The position numbers and the translations under genes are program-made. A DNA stretch of 45,190 bases from Bdellovibrionales bacterium. GTDB taxonomy: Bacteria > Bdellovibrionota > UBA2428. The stretch is from contig JAFEAR010000240.1 of the NCBI GenBank assembly GCA_018266335.1, positions 1 to 45,190 on the forward strand. Direction: 5' to 3'. Position 1 is the stretch's first letter, and each line of letters begins with the position of its first letter. The notes below the pieces were generated by a model that had not been told where the DNA came from, searched no databases, and was given only the letters and a program-made list of their open reading frames with translations. This document shows, in pieces, positions 2,507 through 43,856 of the stretch.

Positions 2507-2664
2507 TCTTGCTGCGTGCAGATCGTTTGCTAGTTTTGTAAAAATAACTTTTTCTCTCGAGAAATCATCACTGCGATCCTTCTGCGCGCTTTAAATGTGG
2601 GTGTGATTTTGCTCTGAATCTTTGCAAAAAAGTGCTCCGAAAAACATGTGATATAGCTCTTGTC

Positions 2665-3636
2665 ATGAACACGATTTGCGCACTGAAAGATTCGGAATTG
2701 CTCTCTGCGACCAAAGCTCTCGTTCAAAAAGAGCGGACCGTTACGATGGAAGTCTTGCGGCACCTGCAAGAAATCGAACGGCGCAAGCTCTATGCGTTTC
2801 AGTTTACCTCGCTCTTTGACTACGCCGTTCGCGAGCTTGGCTATTCGGAAGCCGCGGCCAGCAGGCGAATTCAGGCGATGCGCCTTATGACCGAGATTCC
2901 GGAGATCGCTCCTAAGATTGAATCAGGCACTTTGAATTTGAGTAACATCTGCCAGGCGCAGAGCTTCTTTCGGGATCTCAAACGAGCACAGCCAGAAATG
3001 GCTTTAAGTAAGGAGCAAAAGACTGAGGTCTTGGCGCAGATGGAGGATAAGTCCGCCCGCGAGGGACAAAAGGTTATTCTTTCGATCTGCCCGCCCTCGG
3101 TTCTCCCCCGCGAGCGGGAGCGTATGGTGAGTGCCGAGCATACGGAAGTAAAATTTTTAATTGATCAGAAGCTACGCGAGAGTTTGGAGCAGGTTCGCGC
3201 GCTACTCGGGCCAAAAGGTGCAGAATTGAGCCTGTCTGAGCTTGTGGCCGAGATGGCTCGTTTGAGTGCGGAGCGTCTTAGCGAAAAGCGTTTTGGCAAA
3301 GCTCGCGTGAGGGTGGAGCACGAGGCTCCGTCTCAAAACCCCGGCGCCGGGGCGGGAGATCACCCCGTTGACCAGTCCGCGACTACGGATGTCCGCACGC
3401 AAACACCCTATAAACGTACCCGTTACATTTCGAAAGCCGTGAAGCACAGGGTTTGGCGCGCTGCGGGCGGCAAATGCACAAGCTGTGGATCAAAGCATCG
3501 GCTGCAGTTCGATCACATCCAGCCTTTCGCCCTGGGCGGCGACTCCACAGCGAAGAATATCCAACTTCTTTGCAGTTCATGTAACATTCGCCGCGGGATT
3601 CAGTCCTTTGGAGCTCGGGCTATGCATCGGCCGTGA
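2665..3636 (+). CDS. HNH endonuclease, dispersed multicopy family (copy 1)
   Basis: 323 residues. The N-terminal part is helical and charged (ELLSATKALVQKER, then a conserved ELGYSEAAASRRIQAMRLM stretch near residue 75), of the sort seen in DUF222-like HNH proteins. A low-complexity linker follows at about 215-250. The C-terminal HNH/McrA-type domain has a CxxC, then LQFDHIQPFALGGD with the catalytic DH, a conserved Asn and a second CxxC, so the zinc ligands and active site look intact. It is a paralogue of the gene at 42852. The ATG at 2665 was chosen because both paralogues start MNTI there; an in-frame GTG at 2632 exists in both and cannot be excluded. Neither has a good Shine-Dalgarno site. 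The biological role of this family is unknown to me; no partner gene is present. Confidence 0.8.
   Translation: MNTICALKDSELLSATKALVQKERTVTMEVLRHLQEIERRKLYAFQFTSLFDYAVRELGYSEAAASRRIQAMRLMTEIPEIAPKIESGTLNLSNICQAQSFFRDLKRAQPEMALSKEQKTEVLAQMEDKSAREGQKVILSICPPSVLPRERERMVSAEHTEVKFLIDQKLRESLEQVRALLGPKGAELSLSELVAEMARLSAERLSEKRFGKARVRVEHEAPSQNPGAGAGDHPVDQSATTDVRTQTPYKRTRYISKAVKHRVWRAAGGKCTSCGSKHRLQFDHIQPFALGGDSTAKNIQLLCSSCNIRRGIQSFGARAMHRP
3339..3352. repeat. In-gene copy of the upstream palindrome (HNH copy 1 linker)
   Basis: CCCCGGCGCCGGGG, identical to 2292-2305, lies in the part of the HNH gene that encodes the variable linker between the N-terminal region and the HNH domain. It is translated as part of an NPGAGAG stretch that is absent from the paralogue. 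Confidence 0.6.
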
Positions 3637-5651: not shown

Positions 5652-6458
5652 TTGCAGTCCACATTTATGACAACTCGAGATGACATCGTCAGCTACCTAA
5701 AAGATCTTCGCACTCGTATCTGCCAAGCCTTCGAGGCACTCGAAACCCAGGGCAAATTTGAACGCACCGTGTGGCCCTACACCAAGGGGCACGGCGGCGG
5801 AGAGATGTCCGTGCTACGCGGTGAAGTCTTCGAAAAGGCCGCCGTGAATTGGTCGGGAGTGGGCGGCGATAAATTTCCGATGGCCGATGGTCAGGGAGCG
5901 TTCTTCGCCACGGGCGTAAGTCTCATCACGCACATGCGCAACCCCAAAGCGCCCACCGTGCACTTCAACATTCGTTACATGGAAACCGAAAAGAGCTCGT
6001 GGATTGGCGGCGGCTTTGATTTAACGCCCATGGGCTTTCCCTTCGCCGAAGACACCGCCCACTTTCACGCCGCGGCCCAGCGCGCCCTCGACCCCTTCGG
6101 TAAGGATTTGTATCCGCGCTTTGCCGCGCAGGCCAAAGAGTATTTCACCATCAAACACTACAACCGCGAGCGCGGCGTGGGCGGCATTTTTTTTGATCAC
6201 CTGAACAGCGGCGACCGGGAGCGAGATCTGGCCATGTGGCGCTCAGTGGGCGATCACTTCCTGGATGCCATTTTGCCGATCTACGCCAAGCGACTGCAAG
6301 AGCCCTACACGGAGGCCGATCGCCTCACGCAACTTAAGCGCCGCGCACACTACGTGGAATTCAACTTACTCTACGATCGGGGAACTAAATTTGGCTTTGA
6401 ATCGGGCGGCAACCCCGAAGCTATTCTTTGCTCCATGCCGCCTCTGGCGGCTTGGTAA
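5652..6458 (+). CDS. hemF: Oxygen-dependent coproporphyrinogen III oxidase
   Basis: 268 residues; converts coproporphyrinogen III to protoporphyrinogen IX with O2 in heme synthesis, in the cytosol. Family blocks are all present: GGGEMSVLRG, a VHFNIRYME strand, WIGGGFDLTP, the YFTIKHYNRERGVGGIFFDHL block, VEFNLLYDRGTKFG, and the terminal SMPPLAAW. The protein stops right after that last motif, without the ~30-residue tail of the E. coli enzyme; as I recall, short forms of this kind are usual in alphaproteobacteria, so I do not regard it as broken. The TTG start at 5652 has a GAGGG sequence 7 nt upstream; an in-frame ATG at 5667 lacks one. The window also encodes the anaerobic counterpart hemN, so heme synthesis works with or without oxygen. 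Confidence 0.92.
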   Translation: MQSTFMTTRDDIVSYLKDLRTRICQAFEALETQGKFERTVWPYTKGHGGGEMSVLRGEVFEKAAVNWSGVGGDKFPMADGQGAFFATGVSLITHMRNPKAPTVHFNIRYMETEKSSWIGGGFDLTPMGFPFAEDTAHFHAAAQRALDPFGKDLYPRFAAQAKEYFTIKHYNRERGVGGIFFDHLNSGDRERDLAMWRSVGDHFLDAILPIYAKRLQEPYTEADRLTQLKRRAHYVEFNLLYDRGTKFGFESGGNPEAILCSMPPLAAW

Positions 6459-14565: not shown

Positions 14566-15324
14566 CTACGCGCGGCCACGTCCCATGAAGGAAACTACGG
14601 CCTTACGCGACATGAACTTTGAACAAAGAAGGAAAAAACGATTTTTCCATCCAGAGACGACCGTCGGAATTTTTCTTCGCCGCAAAGCCTTAAGCGCCAC
14701 TTTAACGACCTGATCGGGCGTCTGAGTTAATGCTGCCGGAGGACGCACTTCGCGCGACCCTCCCGCCCGAGTATGAAATTCCGTTTCTGTGGAGCCAGGA
14801 CACAATCCCACCACGTAAATTTGGCGAGCGCGATTTTCGAACCACAGCGAATCCGAAAGCGAAGTCACGAAGGCCTTAGTTGCGGAGTAAAGCGCGGAGC
14901 TCGGCATGGGAACCATGGCGAGTACGGAGGACACGTTAATCAACGCATCGCCCGCGCGAGCGGTCTTCAAAAACGCATGCGAGAGAGTCACCAGAGCCTC
15001 GCAATTCAAACGGAGTACGGTCTGCATGGCCGGCAAATCGACTTCATGAAACTTGCCGTAAACGCCACTGCCCGCGTTGTTCACCAGCAACTCCAAACGA
15101 AGTTTAGGAATTTCTTCGGCCAGAGCCTGAATGCCGTGAGGTGTAACCAGATCGAGCACGCGGTAAGAATGCGGCGTTCCGCCCATTTCCTCTACGAGCG
15201 CCTGCAATCGGGCCTCGTTGCGCGCGACCGCAATAACTTGGTAACCTTGCTCCGCCAGCTTCAGGGCAAAGGCGCGGCCGATGCCCTCACTGGCTCCCGT
15301 AACGAGTGCTTTTTTCTGGGCCAT
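14566..15324 (-). CDS. Short-chain dehydrogenase/reductase
   Basis: 252 residues, classical SDR. TGASEGIGRAFA is the cofactor glycine motif; the Arg after the second strand (VARNEARL) favours NADP(H); NNAGSG is the structural motif; catalytic Ser lies in INVSSVLAM and the YSATK block supplies Tyr and Lys; CPGSTETEFH follows. The subgroup resembles the DltE/YqjQ-type SDRs with a hydrophobic basic C-terminal tail (RFFLLCSKFMSRKAVVSFMG), which may give membrane contact. Substrate is unknown. It starts 10 nt after the methyltransferase-like gene and probably belongs to the same minus-strand operon (RluA-type synthase, methyltransferase, SDR). Confidence 0.85.
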   Translation of the reverse strand: MAQKKALVTGASEGIGRAFALKLAEQGYQVIAVARNEARLQALVEEMGGTPHSYRVLDLVTPHGIQALAEEIPKLRLELLVNNAGSGVYGKFHEVDLPAMQTVLRLNCEALVTLSHAFLKTARAGDALINVSSVLAMVPMPSSALYSATKAFVTSLSDSLWFENRARQIYVVGLCPGSTETEFHTRAGGSREVRPPAALTQTPDQVVKVALKALRRRKIPTVVSGWKNRFFLLCSKFMSRKAVVSFMGRGRA

Positions 15325-15334
15325 AGGGAATTTG

Positions 15335-16198
15335 TTATACCCTGAAACGGCAAAAAGCGCCCGAGGGCACGCGGCGGCCCCCCGCCCCAGATTCGGGCAC
15401 GAACATTTCGCCCACTTCCAAGCTATCGGCCGGCAACGGCAGACTACCCGTAAGCAAGTTACGCAGAACTTCGGGCGTGAACCCCGGCGAATGACACGAC
15501 ATGTGAACAAGCGAGGGTTTAGGGACCAAAACCTTGGCAATAGCGTCTAGGAGATGACCGATGTCGTCCTCGATTTTAAACACTTCCTTGTTCGCACCCC
15601 GGCCAAAGGAGGGCGGATCGAGCAACACTCCGTCGTACTTGCGCCCCCGACGCTCTTCTTTCTTTAAAAAAGCCAAGCAGTCTTCGACCACGTAGCGAAT
15701 TCGCTCGCGAGGCAAGGCGTTGAGCTCGAGGTTTTCTTTGGACCAGTCCACGATGCCCTTGGCGGCATCGACATGGGTGACCTCGGCGCCTCCCTGCGCC
15801 AGCGAGAGCGAAGAGCCGCCGGTGTACGCAAAGAGATTCAAAATTTTCAGATTCGGAACTTTGCGGGCCGTTTCGCGAAACCACGCCCACTCCGAGGCTT
15901 GCTCGGCAAAGAAGCCCAAGTGCCCAAACGAGGTGAGTTTGGTTTTTAAACGCAACCCACCCAGCTCCGTAATCCAAGACTCGGGAAGCTTGCGCTTAAA
16001 TTCCCAGTGGCCTCCGCCCTTGTCCGAGCGTTGGTGCACAGCGTGCGCCTTGGCCCACTCCTTGGCGGGCAAGCGCGGACGCCAAAACGCCGCTGCGGAC
16101 TGACGCTCTACAATCCACTCCCCCACGCGTTCCAATTTACGGCCGTCGCCGCTATCCAGAAGTTCGTAGGGACCAGAGGACTGAGTGGGTTCGCTCAT
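15335..16198 (-). CDS. SAM-dependent RNA methyltransferase-like protein (RlmI-type fold)
   Basis: 287 residues. The Rossmann methyltransferase core starts with ILNLFAYTGGSSLSLAQGGAEVTHVDAAKG (motif I and the acidic end of strand 2), then VEDCLAFL and the motif IV block LLDPPSFGRG, which is typical of RlmI/RlmK-like 23S rRNA methyltransferases. A late HMSCHSPGF motif also matches that group (SCS in RlmI). The N-terminal ~100 residues replace the PUA domain with a beta-rich region. Its ATG overlaps the stop of the pseudouridine synthase gene as ATGA, so the two RNA-modifying proteins are translationally coupled. Exact target nucleotide unknown. Confidence 0.82.
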   Translation of the reverse strand: MSEPTQSSGPYELLDSGDGRKLERVGEWIVERQSAAAFWRPRLPAKEWAKAHAVHQRSDKGGGHWEFKRKLPESWITELGGLRLKTKLTSFGHLGFFAEQASEWAWFRETARKVPNLKILNLFAYTGGSSLSLAQGGAEVTHVDAAKGIVDWSKENLELNALPRERIRYVVEDCLAFLKKEERRGRKYDGVLLDPPSFGRGANKEVFKIEDDIGHLLDAIAKVLVPKPSLVHMSCHSPGFTPEVLRNLLTGSLPLPADSLEVGEMFVPESGAGGRRVPSGAFCRFRV

Positions 16199-16987: not shown

Positions 16988-18331
16988 ATGCACACGCTCC
17001 TTCAGAAATACGATGTTCCCGGCCCGCGCTACACCAGCTACCCCACCGTTCCCGCCTGGACGGGTTTGCCCGATACTGAAACTTGGATAAAAGCCTTTCG
17101 TCGCCGGGCGCGCGAGACGGATTACGAGGCCTCGCTCTACCTGCACATTCCCTACTGCCGCTCGCTGTGCACCTTTTGCGGCTGCACCAAAGTTATTACG
17201 CGCGATAAAACCCTCGCAGCCCCCCTCATCCACGCCTTGCTGGCCGAGTTCCGCCTGTACCGCAATGCCCTGGGTCGCGATTTAAGCATTACGGACATTC
17301 ACTTGGGTGGCGGGTCGCCCACATGGCTCGACCCCGAAGAATTCACCTCGCTCATGCGGGGACTCCAGGACTGCGGCGCTCGCCCCGCGTCCGGCCAAGA
17401 AATCTCCATCGAAATCGACCCCCGCACGGTGACCGATGCGCACCTCGATGCGTATCGCGCGGCGGGAGTGAACCGCGTTAGTCTGGGCGTGCAGGACTTC
17501 AACCCCCAAGTCCTGCACGCCATCCGCCGGGAGCAATCCCTCGCGATGGTCACCGAGCTTGTGCAAAAATTGCGCGACCGCGGCATTCACCGTATCAACT
17601 TTGACTTAGTGTTCGGCCTTCCGCACCAAACCCCCGAAACCGTGGCGGCCACCGTGGCCGAGGTGATTAAACTTCAACCATCGCGCATTGCCTTTTATGG
17701 CTACGCGCACGTGCCGTGGATTAAGCCCGCCCAAAAGCTGCTCGAAACACAGGGCCTGCCCACGGGCATCGAAAAACGTGCCCTCTACGAAATGGGTCGC
17801 TCCGTGCTGCTCAAATTTGGATACCGCGAAATCGGCATGGACCACTTTGCCCTGCCCTGCGACGACCTCTACCTGGCGGCCCAAAGCGGCCAGCTCCACC
17901 GCAACTTTATGGGCTACACGGCGCACCAGGCCCCCTTGCTCATTGGCCTGGGACCCTCGAGCTTATCGGACTGCGGCTACGCCTTTGCGCAGAACGAAAA
18001 AGTTCCGCAAATGTATTTAGAACGCGTGGAACGTGGCGAGTGGCCCCTGAGCCATGGCCACGTGCTGAGCGAGCGCGAAATCGAACGACGCGGGTTAATT
18101 CTGAACACGATTTGCCGCATGCATACCCAACTGCCCCAAGCAGTCCTTTCGGAATCTGAACGCAATCAACTCGAGGCCCTAGAACAAGACGGCCTCGTTC
18201 GTTACGACGGAGCCGAACTCCGAGTAACCGAACAAGGCCGTCCTTTTTTGCGGAACATCTGCATGGTCTTCGACGACCATCTCAAAGCGAACCCCGGAGA
18301 GCGGATGCGTCGCTTTAGCCGGACCGTGTGA
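16988..18331 (+). CDS. hemN: Oxygen-independent coproporphyrinogen III dehydrogenase
   Basis: 447 residues; radical SAM enzyme that makes protoporphyrinogen IX from coproporphyrinogen III without oxygen. The N-terminus has PGPRYTSYPT, which is diagnostic of true HemN rather than HemW. The 4Fe-4S/SAM motif is C57xxxC61xxC64xC66 (CRSLCTFCGC). Further blocks are IHLGGGSPTWL, IEIDPRTV, RVSLGVQDF, and the FALPCDDLYLA stretch with GMDHFAL; the C-terminal HemN domain ends with RNICMVFDDHL. A perfect FNR-like palindrome lies upstream, consistent with anaerobic induction, and hemF covers aerobic growth. It converges on the cytochrome c gene with adjacent stop codons. Confidence 0.95.
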   Translation: MHTLLQKYDVPGPRYTSYPTVPAWTGLPDTETWIKAFRRRARETDYEASLYLHIPYCRSLCTFCGCTKVITRDKTLAAPLIHALLAEFRLYRNALGRDLSITDIHLGGGSPTWLDPEEFTSLMRGLQDCGARPASGQEISIEIDPRTVTDAHLDAYRAAGVNRVSLGVQDFNPQVLHAIRREQSLAMVTELVQKLRDRGIHRINFDLVFGLPHQTPETVAATVAEVIKLQPSRIAFYGYAHVPWIKPAQKLLETQGLPTGIEKRALYEMGRSVLLKFGYREIGMDHFALPCDDLYLAAQSGQLHRNFMGYTAHQAPLLIGLGPSSLSDCGYAFAQNEKVPQMYLERVERGEWPLSHGHVLSEREIERRGLILNTICRMHTQLPQAVLSESERNQLEALEQDGLVRYDGAELRVTEQGRPFLRNICMVFDDHLKANPGERMRRFSRTV

Positions 18332-23196: not shown

Positions 23197-25272
23197 ATGA
23201 AACGCTTCATTCTTCTGCTGGGCCTTTGCGCCCTTCCCTTGCCCGCTTTTGCTAAGGTCGTTTCGTACACCCTCAACGTCACGCAGGCGCCCGTAAATCT
23301 GAGCGGCGCCAAGACCGTGGACTTTGCGCTGGCCGTGAACGGCAGCATCCCTGCCCCCACCTTGGAGTTTACCGAGGGCGACGATGCCGTCATCACCGTC
23401 ACCAACAATATTCCTACCGGCAAAGACGTAACAATCCACTGGCACGGCATTCTCCTGCCTCCCGAAGAAGACGGCGTGGCTTACACCAACACACCGCCCG
23501 TTCACGCTGGCGCCTCGCACACCTTTCACTTTAAAATTCGTCAGCACGGCACCTACTGGTACCACTCACACACGGGCTTCCAGGAGCAAAAGGGCGTCTA
23601 CGGAGCCCTCGTTATTCACCCCCAGAAAAAGCGCATCGCTTACGATCGCGACGTCGTGGCTATTTTGAGCGATTGGTCCGATGAAAACGCCGACCAAATT
23701 TTGCGCAACCTTCGCAAGGATGGGGACTACTACCTCTACAAAAAGCATTCCGTGCGCTCGTATCTGGGCGCCCTGCACGCCGAGGCGCTAGGCACGCACC
23801 TCAAAGGCGAATGGCAGCGCATGGGCGGCATGGACCTATCGGACATCGGATACGATGCCTTCCTCACGAATGGCAAACGGAGCACCCAACTAGCCGATGC
23901 TCGCCCCGGGGAACGCATTCGCTTGCGCATTATCAACGCAGGCTCCTCGACTTACTTTCGCGTGGCGCTGGGGCAAACGCCCATGACCGTGATTGCCGCC
24001 GACGGCGTAGACATTTCGCCCGTCCAAGCCAAAGAGCTGCTCATGGGCATGGCCGAAACTTACGACGTGCTCTTCACCGTGCCCGACCGTAAGAACCACG
24101 AACTGCGCGCCACAGCCCAGGACATAACGGGCACGACCTCGGGCTGGATTGGTGCACCGAATGGCGAAAAGGTAACCGCCCCCACGCTGCCGGCCCCCAA
24201 CCTTTACGCCGGAATGAGCCACGACATGGCGGGCATGGATATGTCGAGCGAGGATCACGAATCGGACGCGGCCGACGAAACTCCCGAAGTAATTGACTCC
24301 CTCACCGTAGACCAACTGAAGGCGCTGGCCCCCACCACTTTACCGAAGGATGCGCGTGTGCACGATGTGAAGCTCGTGCTGGGCGGCGATATGCGCCGCT
24401 ACATTTGGTACGTCAATGGCAAGGCCATGTTCGAGGATCACCAAATTCTCGTTCGCGAAAAAGACATCGTACGTATCACCTACGTGAATGACACCATGAT
24501 GCATCATCCGATGCACCTGCACGGGCACTTCTTCCGGGTGCTGAACGACTACGGAGCTTATTCGCCCCTCAAACACACCGTCGATGTACCGCCCATGAGC
24601 ACGCGCACGATTGAGTTCTACGCCAATGAACCGGGCCAATGGATGCTTCACTGCCATAATCTTTTTCACATGCAAACGGGCATGGCCCGCATGGTGCGCT
24701 ACTCCACCTGGACGCCATCGCCCACCATCGCCGCCATGGAGCACCACGATCCGCACATGGGCGACGCCTGGTTCACCTACGGCCGAATAGACGCCGCCAC
24801 GAACCGCGCACAAGCGTACTTCCGGGCTTCCCAAACTTGGAACCAAGTAGAAGCCCGCGTGGAAACATCCAATCCGAGTGGCAGAAGCTTTTCGGTGCAC
24901 GGCCAATGGGAAACCGAAGGCGACGTGTTCTACCGCCGCTGGATGGGCAATTGGCTCAATCTGGTAGCAGGTGGCACGAGTTACCGAGATCAGCTCCGCG
25001 CCACCGCGGGCGTTGGGTACACGCTACCCTTCCTGATCGACTCCACCTTGCTGGTGAATCACCAAGGAAAATTTCGCTTAGATGCTGCCCGGCGATTCCA
25101 ATGGACCTCAACCATCTTTTCTGACCTGGACGCATCCTGGCGTCCTCAACAAGGCGGCGACCACGTTGTCGATCTGCGCCTCTCGCTCATGTACGGCCCC
25201 GCGTGGGCTTGGGCCGCCGGACTCTTGCTCACTAACGACAGCCTAGGCGCCAACCTCTCCGCCCAATTTTAG
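23197..25272 (+). CDS. CopA-like multicopper oxidase with C-terminal outer-membrane-type domain
   Basis: 691 residues. The signal peptide (1-20) is Sec-type, lacking the twin arginine usual for CopA. Copper motifs are HWHG (about 82), HSH in YWYHSHTG (about 124), HPMHLHGHFF (about 437) and HCHNLFHMQTGM (about 485), giving a complete type 1 plus trinuclear site. A Met/His-rich stretch (SHDMAGMDMSSEDH, about 345-358) resembles copper-handling inserts. The MCO part ends near 510; then comes an unusual ~170-residue region of alternating strands (WFTYGRIDAATNRAQAYF onward) ending in LGANLSAQF, with the terminal Phe characteristic of outer-membrane barrels. This resembles CopB, normally a separate protein. 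Expected role is Cu(I) oxidation and copper tolerance. It converges on the next gene with a 6-nt gap. Confidence 0.88.
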   Translation: MKRFILLLGLCALPLPAFAKVVSYTLNVTQAPVNLSGAKTVDFALAVNGSIPAPTLEFTEGDDAVITVTNNIPTGKDVTIHWHGILLPPEEDGVAYTNTPPVHAGASHTFHFKIRQHGTYWYHSHTGFQEQKGVYGALVIHPQKKRIAYDRDVVAILSDWSDENADQILRNLRKDGDYYLYKKHSVRSYLGALHAEALGTHLKGEWQRMGGMDLSDIGYDAFLTNGKRSTQLADARPGERIRLRIINAGSSTYFRVALGQTPMTVIAADGVDISPVQAKELLMGMAETYDVLFTVPDRKNHELRATAQDITGTTSGWIGAPNGEKVTAPTLPAPNLYAGMSHDMAGMDMSSEDHESDAADETPEVIDSLTVDQLKALAPTTLPKDARVHDVKLVLGGDMRRYIWYVNGKAMFEDHQILVREKDIVRITYVNDTMMHHPMHLHGHFFRVLNDYGAYSPLKHTVDVPPMSTRTIEFYANEPGQWMLHCHNLFHMQTGMARMVRYSTWTPSPTIAAMEHHDPHMGDAWFTYGRIDAATNRAQAYFRASQTWNQVEARVETSNPSGRSFSVHGQWETEGDVFYRRWMGNWLNLVAGGTSYRDQLRATAGVGYTLPFLIDSTLLVNHQGKFRLDAARRFQWTSTIFSDLDASWRPQQGGDHVVDLRLSLMYGPAWAWAAGLLLTNDSLGANLSAQF

Positions 25273-25278
25273 TTGAAG

Positions 25279-26997
25279 TTATCCCACGAACGGCGAGTCT
25301 ATGATCCGCTCTGGCGTGGCGCTGGAGCGCGACGCCACAACGTGATCTTCTTCGGGAATAAGCTTACCGGGATTCATGATCGTCTTCGGATCGAGACACT
25401 GCTTCAAGCTCCGCAGGGCCTTCAGGCCGGTTTCCGAAACTTCTTCCTTCATCCACGGCATGTGCTCGTAACCCACGGCATGGTGGTGCGAGAGCGTACC
25501 GCCCGAGCGCATGATGGCATCCGTAATCAGGGTTTTGTAGTTCTGGTACTGCTCAATTTCTTTACCGCGCGTTTGCATAGCGCCATAGGTGAAGTACAAG
25601 CACGCGCCCGTTTCGTAGGTGTGCGAGATGTGGCAACCCACATAGCCCAACGCCTTGGAGCTCTCCTTAGCGAACTGCGCTTTGACGCTCTTAATAACTT
25701 CTTCGTACAGCGGCACCACTTTGGCCCACACCGCCGAGGTCTCCGAAACGTCGCACATGCAACCGTAGTCCATGATGTAGTCGCGCAGGTACGGCACGTT
25801 GAACTTATCGGCGTACCAAGTTTTGCCCACGCTCTTGCCGAGCGGGAAAGCACCATATTTTTTAAAGATCGCAAAGGCATTGTCGCGCGAAGACTTGATA
25901 GCCACTTCGTCGCCCTCAAAGCCCACCACCAGAATGCAAGGTTTGGTAAAACCTTTAGCAACGATTACCTTTTTGACCATTTTTTGCACGAAACCCGTGA
26001 AGCCAGTTTTGGGCGACTTCAAACAGAACGCCAGCTCCGTTTCGCCCGTGTCCTGCAAGCGAATCATGCTAGGCGGAATACCGCTCTGCGCACACTCGCG
26101 CGTGGCATCGACGCCATCCTGAAACGTTTTAAAGAGAAAGCCCCGGTAGTCCTTCACGGCGGGAGACTTGTGCACACGCATCGTGGCTTCGGTGATCACA
26201 CCGAGGGTGCCTTCGGAACCCATCACGAGGCGGTTTAAATCGGGCCCGGCCGACGAAGAAGGCACCTCACGCGTAACGAGCGTGCCATTGGGTGTAACGA
26301 GTTTCACGCACACCAGCATGTCCTCGATTTTGCCGTAGGCATCGGACTGCATGCCGGCCGAGCGAGTTGCCAACCAACCACCGAGGGTGGAGTGCTGAAA
26401 GGAGTCCGGATAGTGACCCAAGTTAAATCCGCGAGCCGCTAAGTCTTCTTCAAGTTTGGGCCCCAGCGCGCCCGCCTCAATGGTGGCCGTCATGGACACG
26501 GGATCCAAACTCAGCAAACGATTCATGTTGCGCATATCGAGCGACACAATCATGCGCCGACTCTTATCCATTGGGTCTATGCAGCCCACGATGTTCGTGC
26601 CGCCACCGAAGGGAATCAAACAGACATCGAATTGGTGACAGAGGCGCACAACCTGTTCGACGTCGGCATGACCTTCGGGAAGCACCACGAGGTCAGGCGC
26701 GCGATCAACCTGCCCCCGGCGTACGCGCACGAGGTCGGTGTAGCTTTTGCCATAGGAGTGCAGCAGGCGCTCCATTTGGTCAGAGGTGTACTGTGCAGGC
26801 TTGAGCACCTTTGCCAGAGCATCCATAAAGCGCGGCTCCAATTGGGGCGCCGCCATTTTTACCTGGGAGAAATCGACCGGCTTGGTTTCGAAATCATGGC
26901 TAATACCCACCATGCGCTGAAGGAAGGGCCACATAAGTGGCTTCGACTTCATCGGGAATTCAAAATCCGCATGTCCCCAGCCCCACCATTTCATCAT
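25279..26997 (-). CDS. Alkyldihydroxyacetonephosphate synthase homologue (FAD)
   Basis: 572 residues; matches the eukaryotic AGPS type rather than simple GlcD oxidases. It begins KWWGWG, as AGPS cores do. The FAD-binding PCMH domain shows VVLPEGHADVEQVVRLC, IPFGGGTNIVG, and the block PDSFQHSTLGGWLATRSAGMQSDAYGKIED. The C-terminal cap contains SHTYETGACLYFT and LSHHHAVGYEHMPW, with the His triad that is catalytic in AGPS. The reaction swaps the acyl group of acyl-DHAP for a fatty alcohol, creating the ether bond. The gene follows a fatty-acyl-reductase gene by 3 nt, which would supply the alcohol, and a CarF-type desaturase lies about 3.4 kb away. I am confident of the family; in vivo activity is inferred. 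Confidence 0.88.
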   Translation of the reverse strand: MMKWWGWGHADFEFPMKSKPLMWPFLQRMVGISHDFETKPVDFSQVKMAAPQLEPRFMDALAKVLKPAQYTSDQMERLLHSYGKSYTDLVRVRRGQVDRAPDLVVLPEGHADVEQVVRLCHQFDVCLIPFGGGTNIVGCIDPMDKSRRMIVSLDMRNMNRLLSLDPVSMTATIEAGALGPKLEEDLAARGFNLGHYPDSFQHSTLGGWLATRSAGMQSDAYGKIEDMLVCVKLVTPNGTLVTREVPSSSAGPDLNRLVMGSEGTLGVITEATMRVHKSPAVKDYRGFLFKTFQDGVDATRECAQSGIPPSMIRLQDTGETELAFCLKSPKTGFTGFVQKMVKKVIVAKGFTKPCILVVGFEGDEVAIKSSRDNAFAIFKKYGAFPLGKSVGKTWYADKFNVPYLRDYIMDYGCMCDVSETSAVWAKVVPLYEEVIKSVKAQFAKESSKALGYVGCHISHTYETGACLYFTYGAMQTRGKEIEQYQNYKTLITDAIMRSGGTLSHHHAVGYEHMPWMKEEVSETGLKALRSLKQCLDPKTIMNPGKLIPEEDHVVASRSSATPERIIDSPFVG

Positions 26998-27000
26998 AAC

Positions 27001-28194
27001 TTAAAGACTCCCTTGTTCGGGTGCAGGCATGTAGCCCAAGCTCACCGCGCGGGCCACGTAAGTGCCCATTAGTTTTTGGTCGATTTGCGGGCAATTCACG
27101 CCGCCTTCCCGAAGGATAGACACCGTGCGGGCACAATCCGTGACGGCACCCTGCTCGAAATTGAATTGACCGTGCTTAAACCACCAACGGAAAGCCTTGG
27201 TCGTGATGCTCGCATACTCCACACCGTCGACTTTGAGCTGACGGTCCTTCAGCATCGCCTTGTATTCTTCCTGCGAAACGAAGTTAATGTTGTAACCAAG
27301 CGAGGCCAAGATTTCGACGATGGCCACGTAACTCTTAATGTCCGGGTTCGTCAGGTGGAAGGTCTCAAAGCGCTGCGAACGATTGAGCGAGAGGTACAAA
27401 ATACCGCGGCTCACGTAGTCCACCGGCGTGATGTCGAAGTGACTCTGCGAACGGAAGGCAATGCCGGTTTCTACAACAGTTTTGAAAATGTCGTAGAACA
27501 GTCCGCTCACGTTGGTTTGTCCCTGCGGATAATGACCCGTGGTGCTCTCACCATAGATTTGTCCCGGCCGCACAATGTTCCACACCAGTCCGCGAGTATC
27601 GCCCGCCTCGCGCACGAGATTTTCGGCAATGAATTTGCTCTTCTGGTAGCTCATGTGGGCAAACTCTTGGCCAATGTCGAGGTCAGTTTCGCGGAAGACC
27701 GTATTGGCATCGAAGGTCTTGTCGCCCATGACCGTGTAAGTAGAGACGTAGCAAAGATCCTTAGTGGGCGTTTGGAGAGCAAAATCGATCATGTGGCGCG
27801 TGCCACCGACGTTTACTTTTTCGATGCGGCGAAAATTGGAGAAGAGATTCGTATCCGCCGCCGCGTGAATCGTAAGATCCACCTTCTGCGCCAATTCCAG
27901 ATAACGGGGCAAGGACAAGCCCAGGTTTTCTTGCGAAACGTCGCCCAGCACCGGAACCAAGCGAGAGGCAAACTGCTCCTCGCATTCGCCGTTCGGATCG
28001 TAAGCCTTGAGGAGCGAACGCAAGCGGCCCAGCCCCTGCTCTTCGTTCTCGGCGCGAACTAGGCAAAAAATGGGCATGCTGTATTCAAGCAGAAGTTGTT
28101 TAAGCAGCTGGGTGCCCAGAACACCGGTGGCTCCGGTTAGAAAAACAGCGCGAATTTTAGAAAGTTGGTCGGTAGCAGTTAAGTTTTGGTTCAT
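27001..28194 (-). CDS. Fatty acyl reductase-like / thioester reductase (NAD-binding 4)
   Basis: 397 residues, extended-SDR fold. FLTGATGVLGTQLLKQLL is the NADP-binding motif; IHAAADTNLFSNF follows, then YVSTYTVMGD, the catalytic YQKSK dyad (HMSYQKSKFIAE) and RPGQIYGES. This matches the male-sterility/FAR and thioester-reductase family that reduces acyl-CoA or acyl-ACP thioesters to aldehydes or alcohols. No carrier or adenylation domain is fused. It is 3 nt upstream of the AGPS homologue, which uses fatty alcohols, so a role as the alcohol source for ether lipid synthesis is the simplest reading. The ATG at 28194 lacks a strong Shine-Dalgarno. Confidence 0.85.
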   Translation of the reverse strand: MNQNLTATDQLSKIRAVFLTGATGVLGTQLLKQLLLEYSMPIFCLVRAENEEQGLGRLRSLLKAYDPNGECEEQFASRLVPVLGDVSQENLGLSLPRYLELAQKVDLTIHAAADTNLFSNFRRIEKVNVGGTRHMIDFALQTPTKDLCYVSTYTVMGDKTFDANTVFRETDLDIGQEFAHMSYQKSKFIAENLVREAGDTRGLVWNIVRPGQIYGESTTGHYPQGQTNVSGLFYDIFKTVVETGIAFRSQSHFDITPVDYVSRGILYLSLNRSQRFETFHLTNPDIKSYVAIVEILASLGYNINFVSQEEYKAMLKDRQLKVDGVEYASITTKAFRWWFKHGQFNFEQGAVTDCARTVSILREGGVNCPQIDQKLMGTYVARAVSLGYMPAPEQGSL

Positions 28195-28266
28195 AAAAAT
28201 CAGCTCCCTGGTTTAAAGTCCTGGGGAAATTTTTGTAAAGGCTTTTCTCGATTTATCTTATGTAAT

Positions 28267-28740
28267 TCACAAATTTGCACGGGATTTTGGATCAATTTGG
28301 AGAAGGAAGCCCCGAAGCCAGTACGCGCAGGCAAAAAACATGGGCAGCACGACCAAAACCTGCAGGGCAAAGGCCACCCCATTGTTGCTCCGATTGTCCG
28401 TGTAACTTAGGCCATTCACACCCAAAATCGAAGCCACCAGAGTCACCAGCCAGTTGGCCCAGCAGGGCAAACTCACCAGCCAAGTCAGCCGGTAAAGCTG
28501 CCGAGAATCGTAGCCCAAGTGAGCAAAACTAACCCCCACCGCAATGAGGAGCAGCCCACCCATCAGCCCGTTCAAATGGGCCGCCAAGGCCAAACGGGGA
28601 ATCACCAGTGTTACCTGTCCCGTCAAAGCCGCCGCCGACCACAGGCCCGTCACCATCCCCACCAAGACCAGGAGAGCTCCCGAAAAGAAAATCTTTTTTT
28701 GGGGAGTCCACCCCCGAAAGTACCGACCGAACATGATCAC
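28267..28740 (-). CDS. Four-helix membrane protein (hydroxylaminobenzene mutase-like?)
   Basis: 157 residues with four hydrophobic segments (about 17-37, 50-72, 83-105 and 122-145). The stretch RLALAAHLNGLMGGLLLIAVG resembles the conserved helix of HabA-type hydroxylaminobenzene mutases (LxAHLxGxxNG), and the spacing of helices fits, but the remaining residues are not decisive. It sits between the fatty-acyl-reductase operon (73-nt gap, same strand) and the divergent acyltransferase gene (64 nt), so it may share regulation with the lipid genes. Start could be 28740 or the second ATG at 28734. Confidence 0.55.
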   Translation of the reverse strand: MIMFGRYFRGWTPQKKIFFSGALLVLVGMVTGLWSAAALTGQVTLVIPRLALAAHLNGLMGGLLLIAVGVSFAHLGYDSRQLYRLTWLVSLPCWANWLVTLVASILGVNGLSYTDNRSNNGVAFALQVLVVLPMFFACAYWLRGFLLQIDPKSRANL

Positions 28741-28804
28741 ACTCTAAACGCTCCCCCCTAAAAGTCCACTTGAAGGCCCGCCGAGTTTCGGAGAAGGTGC
28801 GCCC

Positions 28805-29584
28805 ATGTCCCAGCGCCCTTCGCTCCTTTCTCGCACCCGCATTTGCCTCCAGTGGATGGTGAATTGGCTCCTCTTCCTGCCCTTCGGTGGGGTCTTGCTG
28901 CAGATTTTTCACTATATTTTGGGCATCCGAGTGGTGGATCGGGAGCATCACCGCAAGTTTTATCTGGAACTCACGCGCGATCGCACGCCCCTGATTATCT
29001 GCGCGAATCACCTGACCTACATCGACTCCGTCGTGCTCATTTACGCCTTCGCCCGAACCTGGGATTACTTTACCAAGTTCCGCATTCTTTCGTGGAACCT
29101 GCCCGCCGCCAACTACCGCGCCAACCCCTTCTTCCTGCTCGTGGGCATGCTCTCGAAATGCATATTTATTAAACGCACCGGCAGCGCCGCCCAAAAAGAA
29201 CAGGTGCTCAACGAAGCCCGCTGGATTGTTGCCCACGGGGAACCACTGACCATCTTCCCCGAGGGCCGACGCAGCACAACGGGCCGTTACGATGACGGCC
29301 GTCTGGCCTACGGCATCGGTAAAATTATGCGCACCCTGCCGTCCTGCCGCGTGCTCTGCGTATACTCCCGCGCGGACGATCAAATGGGTAAGTCCAAATT
29401 TCCCAGCCGCAACGCCAAATTTCGCATTCGCTACGAGTTGCTTCACTTTACCGGCGAAGAGCTCCAGCCGCTCTCGGCCGTAGGCACCACCACCAAAAAA
29501 ATTGCCGAGACTATACAGCGGCTAGAAACACTTCACTTTCAGGAACTCCCGAGCCTCCATGTTTCGCCGACGCTTCCTCGTTAA
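28805..29584 (+). CDS. PlsC-type glycerophosphate acyltransferase
   Basis: 259 residues. One hydrophobic segment near the N-terminus (about 15-38). The acyltransferase motifs are NHLTYIDS (block I, HxxxxD), IFIKRTG (block II area), and FPEGRRSTTG (block III). Family members acylate lysophosphatidate, or DHAP/glycerol-3-phosphate, at the inner membrane. In its setting beside an AGPS homologue and a CarF homologue it may acylate DHAP or the sn-2 position of alkyl-glycerophosphate, but the sequence cannot decide. The last 26 nt overlap the lipid kinase gene, indicating translational coupling. Confidence 0.87.
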   Translation: MSQRPSLLSRTRICLQWMVNWLLFLPFGGVLLQIFHYILGIRVVDREHHRKFYLELTRDRTPLIICANHLTYIDSVVLIYAFARTWDYFTKFRILSWNLPAANYRANPFFLLVGMLSKCIFIKRTGSAAQKEQVLNEARWIVAHGEPLTIFPEGRRSTTGRYDDGRLAYGIGKIMRTLPSCRVLCVYSRADDQMGKSKFPSRNAKFRIRYELLHFTGEELQPLSAVGTTTKKIAETIQRLETLHFQELPSLHVSPTLPR

Positions 29585-30479
29585 TCCCGGCGCCGGAGGT
29601 GTTTCGAGTTCCTTCCTCAAGGAAACTCGGCGCTACTTTTTGCGGCACGACGGAAACTTCGATTCCCGCAACGCACGCAACGCCGCAGATTTTCTGCGCG
29701 CCGTAGAAGAGGCTTGTGCCCAAGGCGTGGAGCAAATCGTTGCGGTGGGCGGCGATGGCACCGTGAATGCCGTGGCCAATGCCCTGCTGCAACAACGCGG
29801 CAACGTGCCGAGTTTAGCCGTCGCCAAAGCCGGCACGGGTTCCGACTACTGGCGCAATATCCTGGCCCAGCGACCGACTCGCACCAAAGTGGACTGGAAG
29901 GATGTCGTGCGCGAGCACGAGATCCGCGAACACGACGTAGGCGTGCTGGAATGGGGCGCCAATCTGGAGCATGCGCGCTATTTCGTGAACGCAGCTACCT
30001 TCGGCTGGAGCGCGCGCGTGGTGCAGGCTAAAGAAAATCTCAGCTCGCGAGTCCCCCGTGCCCTCTCCTACCTACTGCCAACCGCGCTAAGCCTGAACAA
30101 GCTGCAGGCCGAAACCGCACGATTGCGCATCGACGGCGAAACTATTGAACACAGCTTGTTGGCCCTCTTCGTGTGCAAAGGACTCTTTGCGGGAAGCGGG
30201 CTGCGTTTTGGCGAGCAAGGGCATTTAGACGACGGCGCCTTTGACGTGCTCTGGCTAGGTAACTTGGCCTGGTACGATGTTCTAAAAAAGTTTCCCCAAC
30301 TCTTCAGCTCCGGGGTAAAGGCCGATACGCAAATTCTACGGCGAAGAGCGCAGCAAATTGAGCTCCTCAGCCCCGCGGGACTCGCCACCGAAATCGATGG
30401 CGAATTTATTGCGGATGCCGCGCGCTTTCGATTGCGTTTGGAGCCCCGCCGTTTGCGGGTTTGCGTGCCGCGAACGTAA
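29559..30479 (+). CDS. Diacylglycerol kinase-family lipid kinase (DgkB/YegS type)
   Basis: 306 residues. FLVNPGAGG opens the catalytic domain; the ATP-binding signature is VAVGGDGTVNAVANALL (about 64-80), followed by AGTGSDYWRN (GTGNDFAR in most relatives). The C-terminal beta sandwich contains FVCKGLFAGSGLRFGEQGHLDDGAFDVLWLG and ends EIDGEF. It phosphorylates a lipid hydroxyl: diacylglycerol, or an alkyl-acyl glycerol in this locus. It overlaps the acyltransferase gene by 26 nt at the front. At the back it overlaps the convergent CarF-like gene by 74 nt, an unusually long coding overlap. Confidence 0.87.
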   Translation: MFRRRFLVNPGAGGVSSSFLKETRRYFLRHDGNFDSRNARNAADFLRAVEEACAQGVEQIVAVGGDGTVNAVANALLQQRGNVPSLAVAKAGTGSDYWRNILAQRPTRTKVDWKDVVREHEIREHDVGVLEWGANLEHARYFVNAATFGWSARVVQAKENLSSRVPRALSYLLPTALSLNKLQAETARLRIDGETIEHSLLALFVCKGLFAGSGLRFGEQGHLDDGAFDVLWLGNLAWYDVLKKFPQLFSSGVKADTQILRRRAQQIELLSPAGLATEIDGEFIADAARFRLRLEPRRLRVCVPRT

Positions 30480-31179
30480 TGGCCAGATCCTCGCGCCGCG
30501 GGATTTCGCCCGTAACGCGCGTAACAATCCACTCGAGCTTACGAAAGAGCCCTACCCGATTCAGTAACGGATTCATCCACCCCGTCGTGATGCAATAAGA
30601 TTCCACAAAGGGAGCGCGATGGTGCTCGGCGTGTCGCGGAGCCGGCAACACAATCCACAAGCGCTGCAGACCTTTAACCCAGGGTTTGGCCAGCTCCCCC
30701 TGATGGGCCCATTGGTGCGCCTGATTTGTCATGAGCGTCCAAAAGCTAAGCGAAGCCATCACTACGCCTGCGAAGAACGCACCAGACTTCGACAAATCCA
30801 AATTCAGCGCAGCCACAAGCACCGGCAAACACACCAGGCAGCTCGCACCGTTGGTTTCAATAAAATCATGGCGGGTGATGGACATGGGATCGACGTGGTG
30901 TTCACGAAAGCTGCGAATGAGCGTAGGACCGAGCACCGGAAATTTAGCGGACCCCCAAGTGTCAGCGCCCCAATGCACCAGGCCCGAAATAAAGTCGGCC
31001 AACAGCCAGCCCGTCACAAATGCGAACACAGCCCATATCGAGCGATCAGCTAGCGCAGCGGATATTTGCAAAATCAGATGCCACATAAGAGCAACGAACG
31101 CAGCAATTGAAAACACCTCAACCGCTCGAAACGTTGACGAATAACCCTTCGCAAGTTCTTCCGAGGAAATCATTTTCAT
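30406..31179 (-). CDS. carF: Plasmanylethanolamine desaturase homologue (CarF/TMEM189/Kua)
   Basis: 257 residues, with hydrophobic segments at about 20-42, 47-68, 112-130 and 134-152. The histidine-rich signature of the CarF/TMEM189 family is complete: GLVHWGADTWGS (H69), SFREHHVDPMSITRHDFIETNG (H94, H95, H104), NQAHQWAH (H155, H159) and PRHAEHHRAPF (H183, H186, H187). In animals and in Myxococcus this di-iron enzyme introduces the vinyl-ether bond that converts plasmanyl to plasmenyl lipids (plasmalogens), using O2. Linkage to AGPS- and FAR-type genes here supports that function. The start at 31179 (MKMISS) is preferred over the longer frame. The last ~24 residues, beyond the conserved domain, are encoded antisense to the end of the lipid kinase gene. 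Confidence 0.92.
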   Translation of the reverse strand: MKMISSEELAKGYSSTFRAVEVFSIAAFVALMWHLILQISAALADRSIWAVFAFVTGWLLADFISGLVHWGADTWGSAKFPVLGPTLIRSFREHHVDPMSITRHDFIETNGASCLVCLPVLVAALNLDLSKSGAFFAGVVMASLSFWTLMTNQAHQWAHQGELAKPWVKGLQRLWIVLPAPRHAEHHRAPFVESYCITTGWMNPLLNRVGLFRKLEWIVTRVTGEIPRREDLAITFAARKPANGGAPNAIESARHPQ

Positions 31180-31281
31180 AGAGAATATCGGCCTTTGTGA
31201 AGAAAAGCGACAGACCTCCAATTTGACGCACTCGGGCCTGATCGATGGACAGGACCACGCGCGATTGACTAGAGTAAAGTC

Positions 31282-31668
31282 ATGTTGGCTCAAATTCAGG
31301 CGAAGGCAGGCAAAATTTTAGTGGTCGAAGACAATCTCGACCTGCGTTCGTTAATGCGCAAAGCACTCGAACTCAAAAATTATGAAGTGCTGCAAGCAGC
31401 CAATGGCACCGAGGCCTTCGATCTTTTGGAAAAAGATCTTTGCCCCGATCTTATTTTGCTCGATCTCTCCATGCCCGGCATGACCGGAACAGAATTCATG
31501 GAGCGCCTGCGCAATCACGCTAAGTATTCCCGCATTAAGACGATCATCGTTTCGGGCTGGAACGATCTCTCCGAGCGCGTCAATGAATTGGGCGCCGATG
31601 GCTTCATTCGCAAGCCCGTCGACCTCCACCGACTCTTCCAAGAAGTCGGCCGCCACGTGGGCGTTTAA
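31282..31668 (+). CDS. Single-domain response regulator
   Basis: 128 residues: only a CheY-like receiver. ILVVEDN supplies the acidic pair, the phosphorylation Asp is in LILLDLSMPGM (about residue 60), Ser in IIVSGW replaces the usual Thr/Ser position, and FIRKPVD provides the conserved Lys. No output domain, so it should work by protein contact, like CheY/DivK-type proteins, or as a phosphate relay. It is transcribed divergently from the CarF-like gene (102-nt gap) with no adjacent histidine kinase. Confidence 0.9.
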   Translation: MLAQIQAKAGKILVVEDNLDLRSLMRKALELKNYEVLQAANGTEAFDLLEKDLCPDLILLDLSMPGMTGTEFMERLRNHAKYSRIKTIIVSGWNDLSERVNELGADGFIRKPVDLHRLFQEVGRHVGV

Positions 31669-42693: not shown

Positions 42694-42851
42694 GCCTGCT
42701 GCGTGCAAATTGCGCTGTGGTTTTTCAAAAATAACTAACTACGCGTGAAAGTCTGCGTGGTGAGGCGCTGGCGCGCGCTGCGTGGCGCTCCAATTTTTAT
42801 CTGAGTCGCTGCAAAAAAGTGCGCAGAAAAACTCGTGATATAGAATTCGGC

Positions 42852-43856
42852 ATGAATACGATTCGTGCCCTGGAAGATTCAGAACTACTCTCCATAACCA
42901 AGGAGCTCGTGCAAAAAGAGCGTGCGGTTACGATGGACATCTTGCGGCATCTGCAAGAAATTGAGCGGCGTAAGTTGTTTGCGGATCTTAGGTATCCTTC
43001 GCTCTTTGAATACGCGGTGCACGAGCTTGGCTACTCGGAAGCTGCTGCGGGCCGGCGCATTCAGGCTATGCGGCTTATGACCGAACTGCCGGGGGTTGCG
43101 CCCAAGATTGAATCGGGCGCGCTAAGCCTTAGCAATATTTGCCAGGCTCGGAGCTTCTTTCGGGAAATGAACAAAGCACAGCCCGAAATGGCCTTGAGCC
43201 GGGAGCAAAAGACCGAAGTGTTAGCGCAACTCGAGGACAAGTCAGCTCGCGAGGGACAACGCATTTTACTTTCCATTAGCCCCGCTCACGCACTGCCTCG
43301 GGAGCGCGAGCGCATAGTGAGCACTGAACATTCAGAAGTTAATTTTTTAATGAGCCAAGAACTTAAAGCTAGCCTTGGCGAAATTCGGGCCCTTTTGGGT
43401 GAGCGGGGTGCTAGGCTGACTTTGGCCGAACTGGTCACCGAGATGGCTCGGCTTAGCAAAGAGCGGCTGCTGGAGCAGCGCTTTGGCAAAAACCGCGTTA
43501 GGCAGACCACGGCAAAATTTGGGAAGCCGAGCTCGGAGCCCATTCCGATGGCTGGCAATAAAAAGCAAATTCAAATCTCCGCACCCTTTAACTCCGACAC
43601 ATCTACTACCGACGTCGGCGAAGCGCTGCGTCAGCGCACTCGCTACATTTCTCGCGCAACCAAGCATGCAGTTTGGCGCAAGGCAGAGGGCAAGTGCGTG
43701 CGGTGTGGATCTACGCACCGGCTGCAATTTGACCACATCCAACCCTTTGCTCTGGGCGGCGACTCGAAGCCAGGAAACATTCAGCTGCTCTGCGGTTCCT
43801 GCAACCTACGGCGCGGCATTGGGACTTTTGGCACGCCAACAATGCGTCGGAGATAA
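42852..43856 (+). CDS. HNH endonuclease, dispersed multicopy family (copy 2)
   Basis: 334 residues, clearly paralogous to the protein at 2665-3636 along the N-terminal ~210 residues (ELGYSEAAAGRRIQAMRLMTELP) and the C-terminal HNH domain (RYISRATKHAVWRKAEGKCVRCGS, then LQFDHIQPFALGGDS and a LLCGSCN second CxxC). The catalytic DH and four zinc cysteines are intact. The proteins differ mainly in the linker (about 215-260), which is longer here and whose DNA includes a CCGACGTCGG palindrome related to repeats upstream. The ATG at 42852 matches the start of the paralogue; an in-frame GTG lies 33 nt upstream in both. Role unknown; candidates are homing-type or anti-invader nuclease. Confidence 0.82.
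   Translation: MNTIRALEDSELLSITKELVQKERAVTMDILRHLQEIERRKLFADLRYPSLFEYAVHELGYSEAAAGRRIQAMRLMTELPGVAPKIESGALSLSNICQARSFFREMNKAQPEMALSREQKTEVLAQLEDKSAREGQRILLSISPAHALPRERERIVSTEHSEVNFLMSQELKASLGEIRALLGERGARLTLAELVTEMARLSKERLLEQRFGKNRVRQTTAKFGKPSSEPIPMAGNKKQIQISAPFNSDTSTTDVGEALRQRTRYISRATKHAVWRKAEGKCVRCGSTHRLQFDHIQPFALGGDSKPGNIQLLCGSCNLRRGIGTFGTPTMRRR
43605..43618. repeat. In-gene palindrome in the HNH copy 2 linker
   Basis: ACTACCGACGTCGG, with the perfect 10-bp palindrome CCGACGTCGG at 43609-43618, matches 13 of 14 positions of the repeat unit found twice upstream at 42337 and 42419. It lies in the linker-coding part, encoding an STTDVG stretch. Confidence 0.5.

Follow-up and report, generated by a model that had tools for sequence, protein, structure and literature searches.

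Gene content of the locus

We analysed a stretch of 45,190 nucleotides from the Bdellovibrionales bacterium assembly GCA_018266335.1 (contig JAFEAR010000240.1; the window), in which six genes between positions 25279 and 31179 probably encode much of an oxygen-dependent pathway to plasmalogens, the vinyl-ether lipids. Five of these genes encode homologues of alkyl-dihydroxyacetone phosphate (alkyl-DHAP) synthase (AGPS), a thioester reductase, a PlsC acyltransferase, a diacylglycerol kinase family enzyme (DAGK) and a CarF/PEDS1 (TMEM189)-type desaturase; the sixth encodes a small membrane protein. An initial annotation of this DNA had placed six genes here, and the positions of the open reading frames (ORFs) bear out their coordinates. 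The features discussed below are as follows, including a short-chain dehydrogenase/reductase (SDR) elsewhere in the window.

25279..26997, minus strand: AGPS homologue, 572 amino acids (aa); PF01565 and PF02913, catalytic R313, R405 and Y468, HHH at 504-506
27001..28194, minus strand: predicted stand-alone thioester reductase (R-domain type), 397 aa; TIGR01746, similarity to MxaA
28267..28740, minus strand: four-helix membrane protein, weakly StyC-like, 157 aa; NF045734, 26.1 bits
28741..28804: divergent interval of 64 bp between the minus- and plus-strand gene sets, from ORF coordinates
28805..29584, plus strand: PlsC-type acyltransferase of an AGPS-associated subfamily, 259 aa; PF01553, linkage to AGPS
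29559..30479, plus strand: YegS/DAGK-family lipid kinase, 306 aa; PF00781 and PF19279
30406..31179, minus strand: putative CarF/PEDS1 (TMEM189)-type plasmanyl lipid desaturase, 257 aa; PF10520, residue set
14566..15342, minus strand: SDR, a weak candidate for alkyl-DHAP reductase, 10 kb from the cluster; likeness to the SDR of locus L130

Two gene sets diverge from the 64 bp interval. On the minus strand, 72 nt separate the membrane protein gene from the reductase gene, which ends 3 nt before the start of the AGPS gene; on the plus strand, the PlsC and DAGK genes overlap by 26 nt. The CarF gene, on the minus strand, converges on the DAGK gene, their 3' ends overlapping by 74 nt. Pfam matches lay above cut-off, and far beyond chance, for five of the six proteins, the membrane protein having none. 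The GC content of the 1.5 kb bins spanning 25501-31500 (0.525-0.583) falls within that of the rest of the window (0.477-0.595), and so gives no compositional sign of recent transfer.

An alkyl-DHAP synthase homologue

The domains PF01565 and PF02913 are common to several families of flavin adenine dinucleotide (FAD) oxidases, and hence membership of the AGPS family was checked separately. Among solved structures, the window protein matched Dictyostelium AGPS (2uuu) with 484.8 bits over residues 37-547 and guinea pig AGPS (4bby) with 333.9 bits, while the next family, D-lactate dehydrogenase, scored 112 bits. Residues relevant to catalysis in the Dictyostelium enzyme are R352, R447 and Y508 (PMC3509576; the chain numbering used here and that of this source differ by a constant offset of 3). 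A residue map aligns these with R419, R515 and Y578 in guinea pig and R313, R405 and Y468 in the window protein. The HHH motif that defines AGPS is found at 504-506.

In a phylogeny of 42 rows, the window protein belongs to a clade (support 98/96) inside a group (96/97) with the AGPSs of Dictyostelium, guinea pig and Myxococcus xanthus. The sole non-AGPS FAD oxidase in that tree, L083 (L and G numbers denote loci and genomes of this analysis), lies outside the AGPS group on a very long branch and lacks the AGPS catalytic residues. When the three longest rows were dropped the 96/97 group was not recovered; the window clade then joined the Dictyostelium enzyme (81/90), both falling in a group of 34 rows (100/100) with the guinea pig and M. 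xanthus enzymes and some AGPS-like rows having glutamine for the second arginine. The identification of the FAD protein as an AGPS homologue, made in the initial annotation, is upheld by scores of 334-485 bits against 112 and by the retained catalytic residues; its position within the AGPS clade, for which that annotation had proposed a phylogeny, holds chiefly on the same bit scores and residues. By sequence, the protein is an alkyl-DHAP synthase of putative activity.

AGPS homologues have already been reported from many bacterial phyla (PMC11868695), and several AGPS-like genes are present in some of the genomes seen here. Nine AGPS-like proteins (L182, L185, L187, L192, L114, L118, L119, L121 and L123) carry glutamine in place of the second catalytic arginine (R515 in guinea pig) and possibly have another activity. 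Guinea pig AGPS groups with the myxobacterial proteins (100/100) and the Dictyostelium enzyme lies nearer the window clade (81/90). A single eukaryotic AGPS clade was rejected (p-AU 2e-49 and 1.6e-47), in a comparison of two eukaryotic sequences that are both fragments and with long branches in play.

A thioester reductase upstream of AGPS

The reductase matched PF07993 (187.8 bits) and TIGR01746 (244.3 bits, cut-off 213.35). Its closest solved relative is the R-domain of MxaA (169.9 bits), while 7eoz, the sole fatty acyl-CoA reductase (FAR) listed, scored 30.7 bits, and a Pfam scan found no Sterile domain (PF03015) in it. The glycine-rich motif, S151, T152, and Y183 and K187 of the Y-x3-K dyad are invariant in an alignment of 14 rows, comprising the window protein and 13 homologues out of the further 119 listed. 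A FAR1-type identity is ruled out by the missing PF03015 and the disparity between the MxaA and 7eoz scores, and we predict from these matches that the protein is a stand-alone thioester reductase of the kind found as R-domains in non-ribosomal peptide synthetase and polyketide synthase (NRPS/PKS) systems. The initial annotation had described a FAR or thioester reductase 3 nt upstream of AGPS: the gap and the thioester reductase stand, the FAR1 type does not, and the protein lies outside the FAR1 group (31 bits to 7eoz against 170 to MxaA) rather than within a FAR clade. R-domains such as that of MxaA make alcohols, and the protein could therefore still supply an alcohol; two-electron and four-electron types of R-domain reductase exist.

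Pairing of this reductase with AGPS elsewhere was gauged by proxy, taking contigs of equal size to be shared. One of the homologue lists was cut to 120 entries, drawn from the 7995 candidates scored, which were those sharing most words; after dropping the window's own rows and rows without contigs, 119 AGPS, 117 reductase and 118 CarF lengths were matched. The longest contig of 33 of the 119 AGPS homologues listed has the same number of bases as that of a reductase homologue, against a chance level of 0.8 on average and 6 at most in 2000 trials with jittered lengths. By the same measure AGPS and CarF coincide in 1 of 119 (0.6 expected). Equal size remains a proxy, as the 22553-base contig of G347 equals that of P0003, yet the AGPS of G347 is only about 36% identical. 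On this measure, the reductase seems to be paired with AGPS elsewhere. In G178 and G089, AGPS has a different PF07993 reductase (verified by Pfam) immediately after it, a weak reductase match lies near AGPS in G353 (71 bits), and in G185 a reductase adjoins a piece of AGPS.

A CarF/PEDS1-type desaturase

The desaturase matched PF10520 with 198 bits. Eight histidines are essential in this family, and a ninth, H131 in mouse and H113 in CarF, is found only in true CarF/PEDS1 proteins; D100 and F118 are named alongside it (PMC8960569, PMC9131029). In an alignment of 31 sequences, H69, H94, H95, H155, H159, H183, H186 and H187 of the window protein are invariant, as are the ninth histidine H104 (mouse H131), D73 (D100) and F91 (F118). 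The full histidine set noted in the initial annotation is thus present, with the ninth histidine, D73 and F91 in addition. We found the whole PEDS residue set in 100 of 106 CarF rows, which include copies of the same genes (100 are different among the 105 rows of the tree). The other six comprise L098, L099, L206 and L207, lacking only the ninth histidine, L041, with lysine in its place, and the partial L205. FAD4 and alphaproteobacterial forms lack the ninth histidine, and rows without it are here labelled FAD4-like. The CarF tree contained no proven FAD4 from plants, no PEDS1 from animals and no Leptospira protein; in it the window protein sits with CarF rows including that of M. xanthus, and four FAD4-like rows stand apart (98 SH-aLRT). 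No credible relative of known structure was found, the best match (E 0.27) being an unrelated methyltransferase. To judge by its residues, the protein is a CarF/PEDS1-type desaturase, of putative activity, and not a member of the curated CarF equivalog NF045946.

Three proteins with the whole PEDS residue set (L077, L063 and L076) come from contigs titled Woesearchaeota archaeon, Patescibacteria and Planctomycetota respectively, for which binning errors are possible; CarF is described as absent from archaea (PMC9131029). The tree places the CarF of L031, whose record bears the name Comamonas sp. KCTC 72670, within Myxococcus, and that genome is probably misnamed.

The acyltransferase, the lipid kinase and the neighbours of AGPS

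The PlsC protein matched PF01553 (48.7 bits, cut-off 23) and fell below the cut-off of TIGR00530 (43.4 bits, cut-off 102.95). One match to it (E≤1e-8) occurs in each of seven Silvanigrellales-type genomes, a label drawn from two of them, which are the named records of Fluviispira and Spirobacillus, and from the CarF tree, and always next to AGPS; it had no such match in the five other genomes searched. This linkage hints that PlsC may be a DHAP or alkyl-glycerol 3-phosphate (alkyl-G3P) acyltransferase. The kinase matched PF00781 (59 bits) and PF19279 (62.2 bits), and scored 87.4 bits against the YegS/BmrU model TIGR00147, below its cut-off of 118.65. It is lipid-kinase-like, and we propose from its family that it acts on alkylglycerols or alkylacylglycerols. 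The presence of both enzymes, as first annotated, is borne out by these domains and by homologues beside AGPS in other bacteria.

AGPS loci were compared across a 58-genome phylum around Fluviispira and a 368-genome phylum that includes the Bdellovibrionaceae record L078 (G001), giving 20 loci with two partial pieces in G185 left out. The partners of AGPS were PlsC with an SDR in 7 loci, all Silvanigrellales-type, GlpD in 10 and a DAGK homologue in 6. The AGPS-linked kinase is the sole DAGK match in G118, G124, G294, G100, G101 and G102. A GlpD-type glycerol-3-phosphate dehydrogenase directly follows AGPS in its 10 loci (L132, L135, L136 and L212-L218), and DAGK then follows GlpD in 5 of them; this AGPS-GlpD(-DAGK) arrangement is possibly an ether-lipid operon that supplies DHAP.

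Within the 58-genome phylum AGPS was found in 8 genomes and CarF-family matches in 9, two weaker ones lacking the ninth histidine. The 7 genomes with a strong AGPS (E<1e-200) are the same 7 that have a strong CarF (E≤1e-98). More broadly, AGPS (E≤1e-60) occurs in 34 of 80 genomes with CarF (27/50, 5/26 and 2/4).

The AccD protein of the window is closest to those of G423 (66%) and G425 (62%), the best in the 58-genome phylum being 58% identical over most of the protein, with one match of 67% over 153 residues. The order RsmI-cyclase-Crp-AccD-LptD is shared by the window, G423 and G425. These two genomes belong to the 368-genome phylum of the Bdellovibrionaceae record L078, and the window therefore probably comes from a relative of the Bdellovibrionota. 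Neither genome, of completeness not known, had a match to AGPS (E≤1e-60) or CarF (E≤1e-20), and so the clade does not carry the cluster throughout. Viral contigs scanned for relatives yielded none. Conservation of the neighbourhood in relatives, which the initial annotation had put forward as a check, extends to PlsC and in part to DAGK (6/20), and not to CarF or the membrane protein.

The membrane protein and the alkyl-DHAP reductase step

The membrane protein gave 26.1 bits against the StyC model NF045734 (cut-off 150) and E 0.38 against 8pnu. A single-sequence AlphaFold (AF2) model had a mean confidence (pLDDT) of 63.8 and no Foldseek fold match at E≤0.001, and we gave it no weight. No homologue of the protein lies beside any of the 20 AGPS loci. 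It had been suggested as an extra, HabA-like member of the pathway; with the weak match to StyC alone, no Pfam hit and none of the AGPS loci sharing it, that membership is not supported.

The SDR at 14566..15342 resembles the one that lies between AGPS and PlsC in L130, with 34% identity across 239 aa (E 2e-38). SDRs are common, and the best NCBIfam match was mycolate_SDR for both the window SDR and that of L125; the resemblance hints that the window SDR might be the alkyl-DHAP reductase.

Proposed pathway and alternative explanations

We consider it probable that the locus encodes most of an O2-dependent, DHAP-based plasmalogen route in a Bdellovibrionota-related bacterium. The thioester reductase (27001-28194) would turn a fatty acyl thioester into a fatty alcohol by reduction, and a DHAP acyltransferase, for which the AGPS-linked PlsC (28805-29584) is a tentative candidate, would form acyl-DHAP. 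On its FAD, AGPS (25279-26997) would exchange the acyl group for the alcohol, yielding alkyl-DHAP, which an SDR, perhaps that at 14566-15342, might reduce to alkyl-G3P. Acylation at sn-2 and addition of the head group would fall to PlsC and housekeeping enzymes, and DAGK would re-phosphorylate alkylglycerols or alkylacylglycerols. Finally, CarF (30406-31179) would use O2 and a di-iron centre to desaturate the plasmanyl to the plasmenyl lipid.

Several observations count against this pathway. The neighbourhoods of CarF were taken from the best 80 of 138 loci, those from named genomes, and searched with ten window proteins (E≤1e-6); flanks exceeded 6 kb on both sides in 39 and on at least one side in 66. 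AGPS lay beside CarF in none of the 80, including the 39 with both flanks; neither PlsC nor DAGK was found in any flank, and a reductase match in one (L058). Nor is CarF linked to AGPS in G089 or in five additional stretches of Silvanigrellales type, and linkage of the two is so far peculiar to this window. At E≤1e-60, AGPS has no match in 46 of the 80 genomes with CarF. The seven genomes with both strong proteins form one clade, and their co-occurrence perhaps represents one event. In the 368-genome phylum, AGPS is found in 24 and CarF-family proteins in 7 (two without the ninth histidine, one partial), and both only in G089, where they are unlinked. The window CarF scores 245.1 bits against NF045946, whose equivalog cut-off is 500; the Silvanigrellales protein L093 likewise falls below (278.7) and M. 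xanthus L046 passes (518.9). The window-type reductase (E≤1e-10) is present in 4 of 13 genomes searched and beside AGPS in none, its matches lying in open frames of 1455-3211 aa except for a frame of 399 aa in M. xanthus, whose AGPS lies on a different contig. Of the 21 genomes searched for DAGK, 3 have no match and 12 of the other 18 have it unlinked to AGPS. Within the 6 kb cluster, no alkyl-DHAP reductase, GNPAT-type or PexRAP gene was identified. The proposal of the initial annotation that the region encodes most of an aerobic plasmalogen route is supported in its AGPS, CarF, PlsC and DAGK homologues and, by the contig proxy, in the pairing of reductase and AGPS; it is not supported in the FAR identity, the linkage of CarF elsewhere and the HabA-like member. 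The compact cluster is real as six ORFs within 6 kb, with no cluster containing CarF at the 80 other CarF loci.

The separation of CarF from AGPS at all other loci seen, their frequent occurrence in separate genomes and the sub-threshold equivalog score would also fit a set of AGPS, reductase, PlsC and DAGK that makes saturated alkyl ether lipids only, with CarF desaturating some other lipid or adjoining by chance. We regard this as unlikely, given that the diagnostic PEDS residues are complete, that strong AGPS and strong CarF occur in the same 7 of 58 genomes and that the two lie within 6 kb here. It is similarly improbable that the reductase takes its substrate no further than the aldehyde, or works towards a different product (wax-type alcohols, for example), leaving AGPS to obtain its alcohol from elsewhere. 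R-domains include two- and four-electron types, the closest solved relatives of this protein come from NRPS/PKS systems, the protein itself is not FAR1-like, and this kind of reductase was beside AGPS in none of the 13 genomes; yet the contig proxy pairs it with AGPS (33/119), 3 nt separate the two genes here, and AGPS needs a fatty alcohol (PMC3509576).

That the AGPS-like protein is instead another FAD oxidase, of the D-lactate, glycolate or 2-hydroxyglutarate dehydrogenase type, is close to refuted: PF01565 and PF02913 are shared with those families, but the bit scores favour AGPS by 334-485 to 112, the catalytic residues missing from L083 are kept, and the AGPS trees agree. A more ambitious form of the plasmalogen proposal holds that PlsC is a dedicated bacterial DHAP acyltransferase, that the locus and its Silvanigrellales relatives make up a complete bacterial glycerone-phosphate pathway, and that eukaryotes took up AGPS, perhaps along with the pathway, on more than one occasion from bacteria of this kind, as the separate placements of the animal and Dictyostelium enzymes in the trees would allow; we think this conceivable but doubtful.

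Comparison with known systems

In M. xanthus, the operon MXAN_1676-1674 encodes AGPS, a fusion of FAR and acyltransferase, and an epimerase, with carF and elbD unlinked (PMC9131029). AGPS there is directly followed by a protein of 868 aa in which a PF07993 reductase and acyltransferase domains are fused, and the genome also encodes CarF (L046 and L180, both of G457). In the window, however, the two activities are assigned to separate genes, each of another subfamily, PlsC has no match in M. xanthus at E≤1e-8, AGPS is about 30% identical, and CarF and the lipid kinase share 6 kb with AGPS. The fusion in M. xanthus and the linkage in the window together support a joint role of reductase, acyltransferase and AGPS.

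The Silvanigrellales-type locus of Fluviispira and Spirobacillus resembles the window in its AGPS (56-60% identical), in the adjoining PlsC of the same subfamily and in having CarF in the genome. It differs in the SDR between AGPS and PlsC and in a FAR1-like reductase 3.5-5 kb from AGPS in 6 of 7 loci, the contig ending first in the seventh (that of L125 scored 144 bits against 7eoz); CarF is found on a separate contig, or at a distance of roughly 600 kb or more. The animal peroxisomal and endoplasmic reticulum pathway (FAR1, GNPAT, AGPS, PexRAP and PEDS1/TMEM189; PMC9131029) shares with the window AGPS, the PEDS1-type residues and the logic of the steps, but the window has a reductase that is not of FAR1 type, a bacterial PlsC and DAGK, and no gene of GNPAT type or for PexRAP was recognised in the cluster. 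The anaerobic PlsA/PlsR route leads to the same end product; by Pfam, and against the domains PlsA is known to carry, none of the six cluster proteins, the longest of 572 aa, has the look of PlsA/PlsR.

Other features of the window

At 2632-3636 and 42819-43856, close to the two ends of the window, are two similar HNH-endonuclease-like ORFs, named by eye and alike in their N-terminal region. An O2-dependent HemF-like protein and an O2-independent HemN-like protein, recognised by eye, are encoded at 5652-6458 and 16988-18331, and a multicopper oxidase, confirmed by Pfam, at 23197-25272. These last three genes would fit an organism that encounters oxygen.

Significance for bacterial plasmalogen synthesis

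A 2022 review gives Leptospira as the only report of true CarF outside myxobacteria and states that it is unknown by which steps M. xanthus turns fatty acid into alkyl ether lipid (PMC9131029). A literature search, with most subscription journals outside it, showed no report of such a cluster among the papers listed and no mention of Silvanigrella together with plasmalogen; articles on Bdellovibrio and plasmalogens, judged by title, held nothing on such a cluster. Phosphatidylethanolamine, phosphatidylglycerol and three unknown lipids are reported from thin-layer chromatography of an aerobic relative, F. vulneris (PMC10645651). The cultured strain Fluviispira multicolorata 33A1-SZDP (G004/L036) carries AGPS, a PlsC of the same subfamily and CarF, and the plasmalogen claim is therefore open to lipidomics. 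The locus and its relatives add Bdellovibrionota-type bacteria to the carriers of CarF, and offer candidates for the early bacterial steps: an R-domain reductase that may provide the alcohol, a PlsC that may be dedicated to AGPS, an SDR and a lipid kinase.

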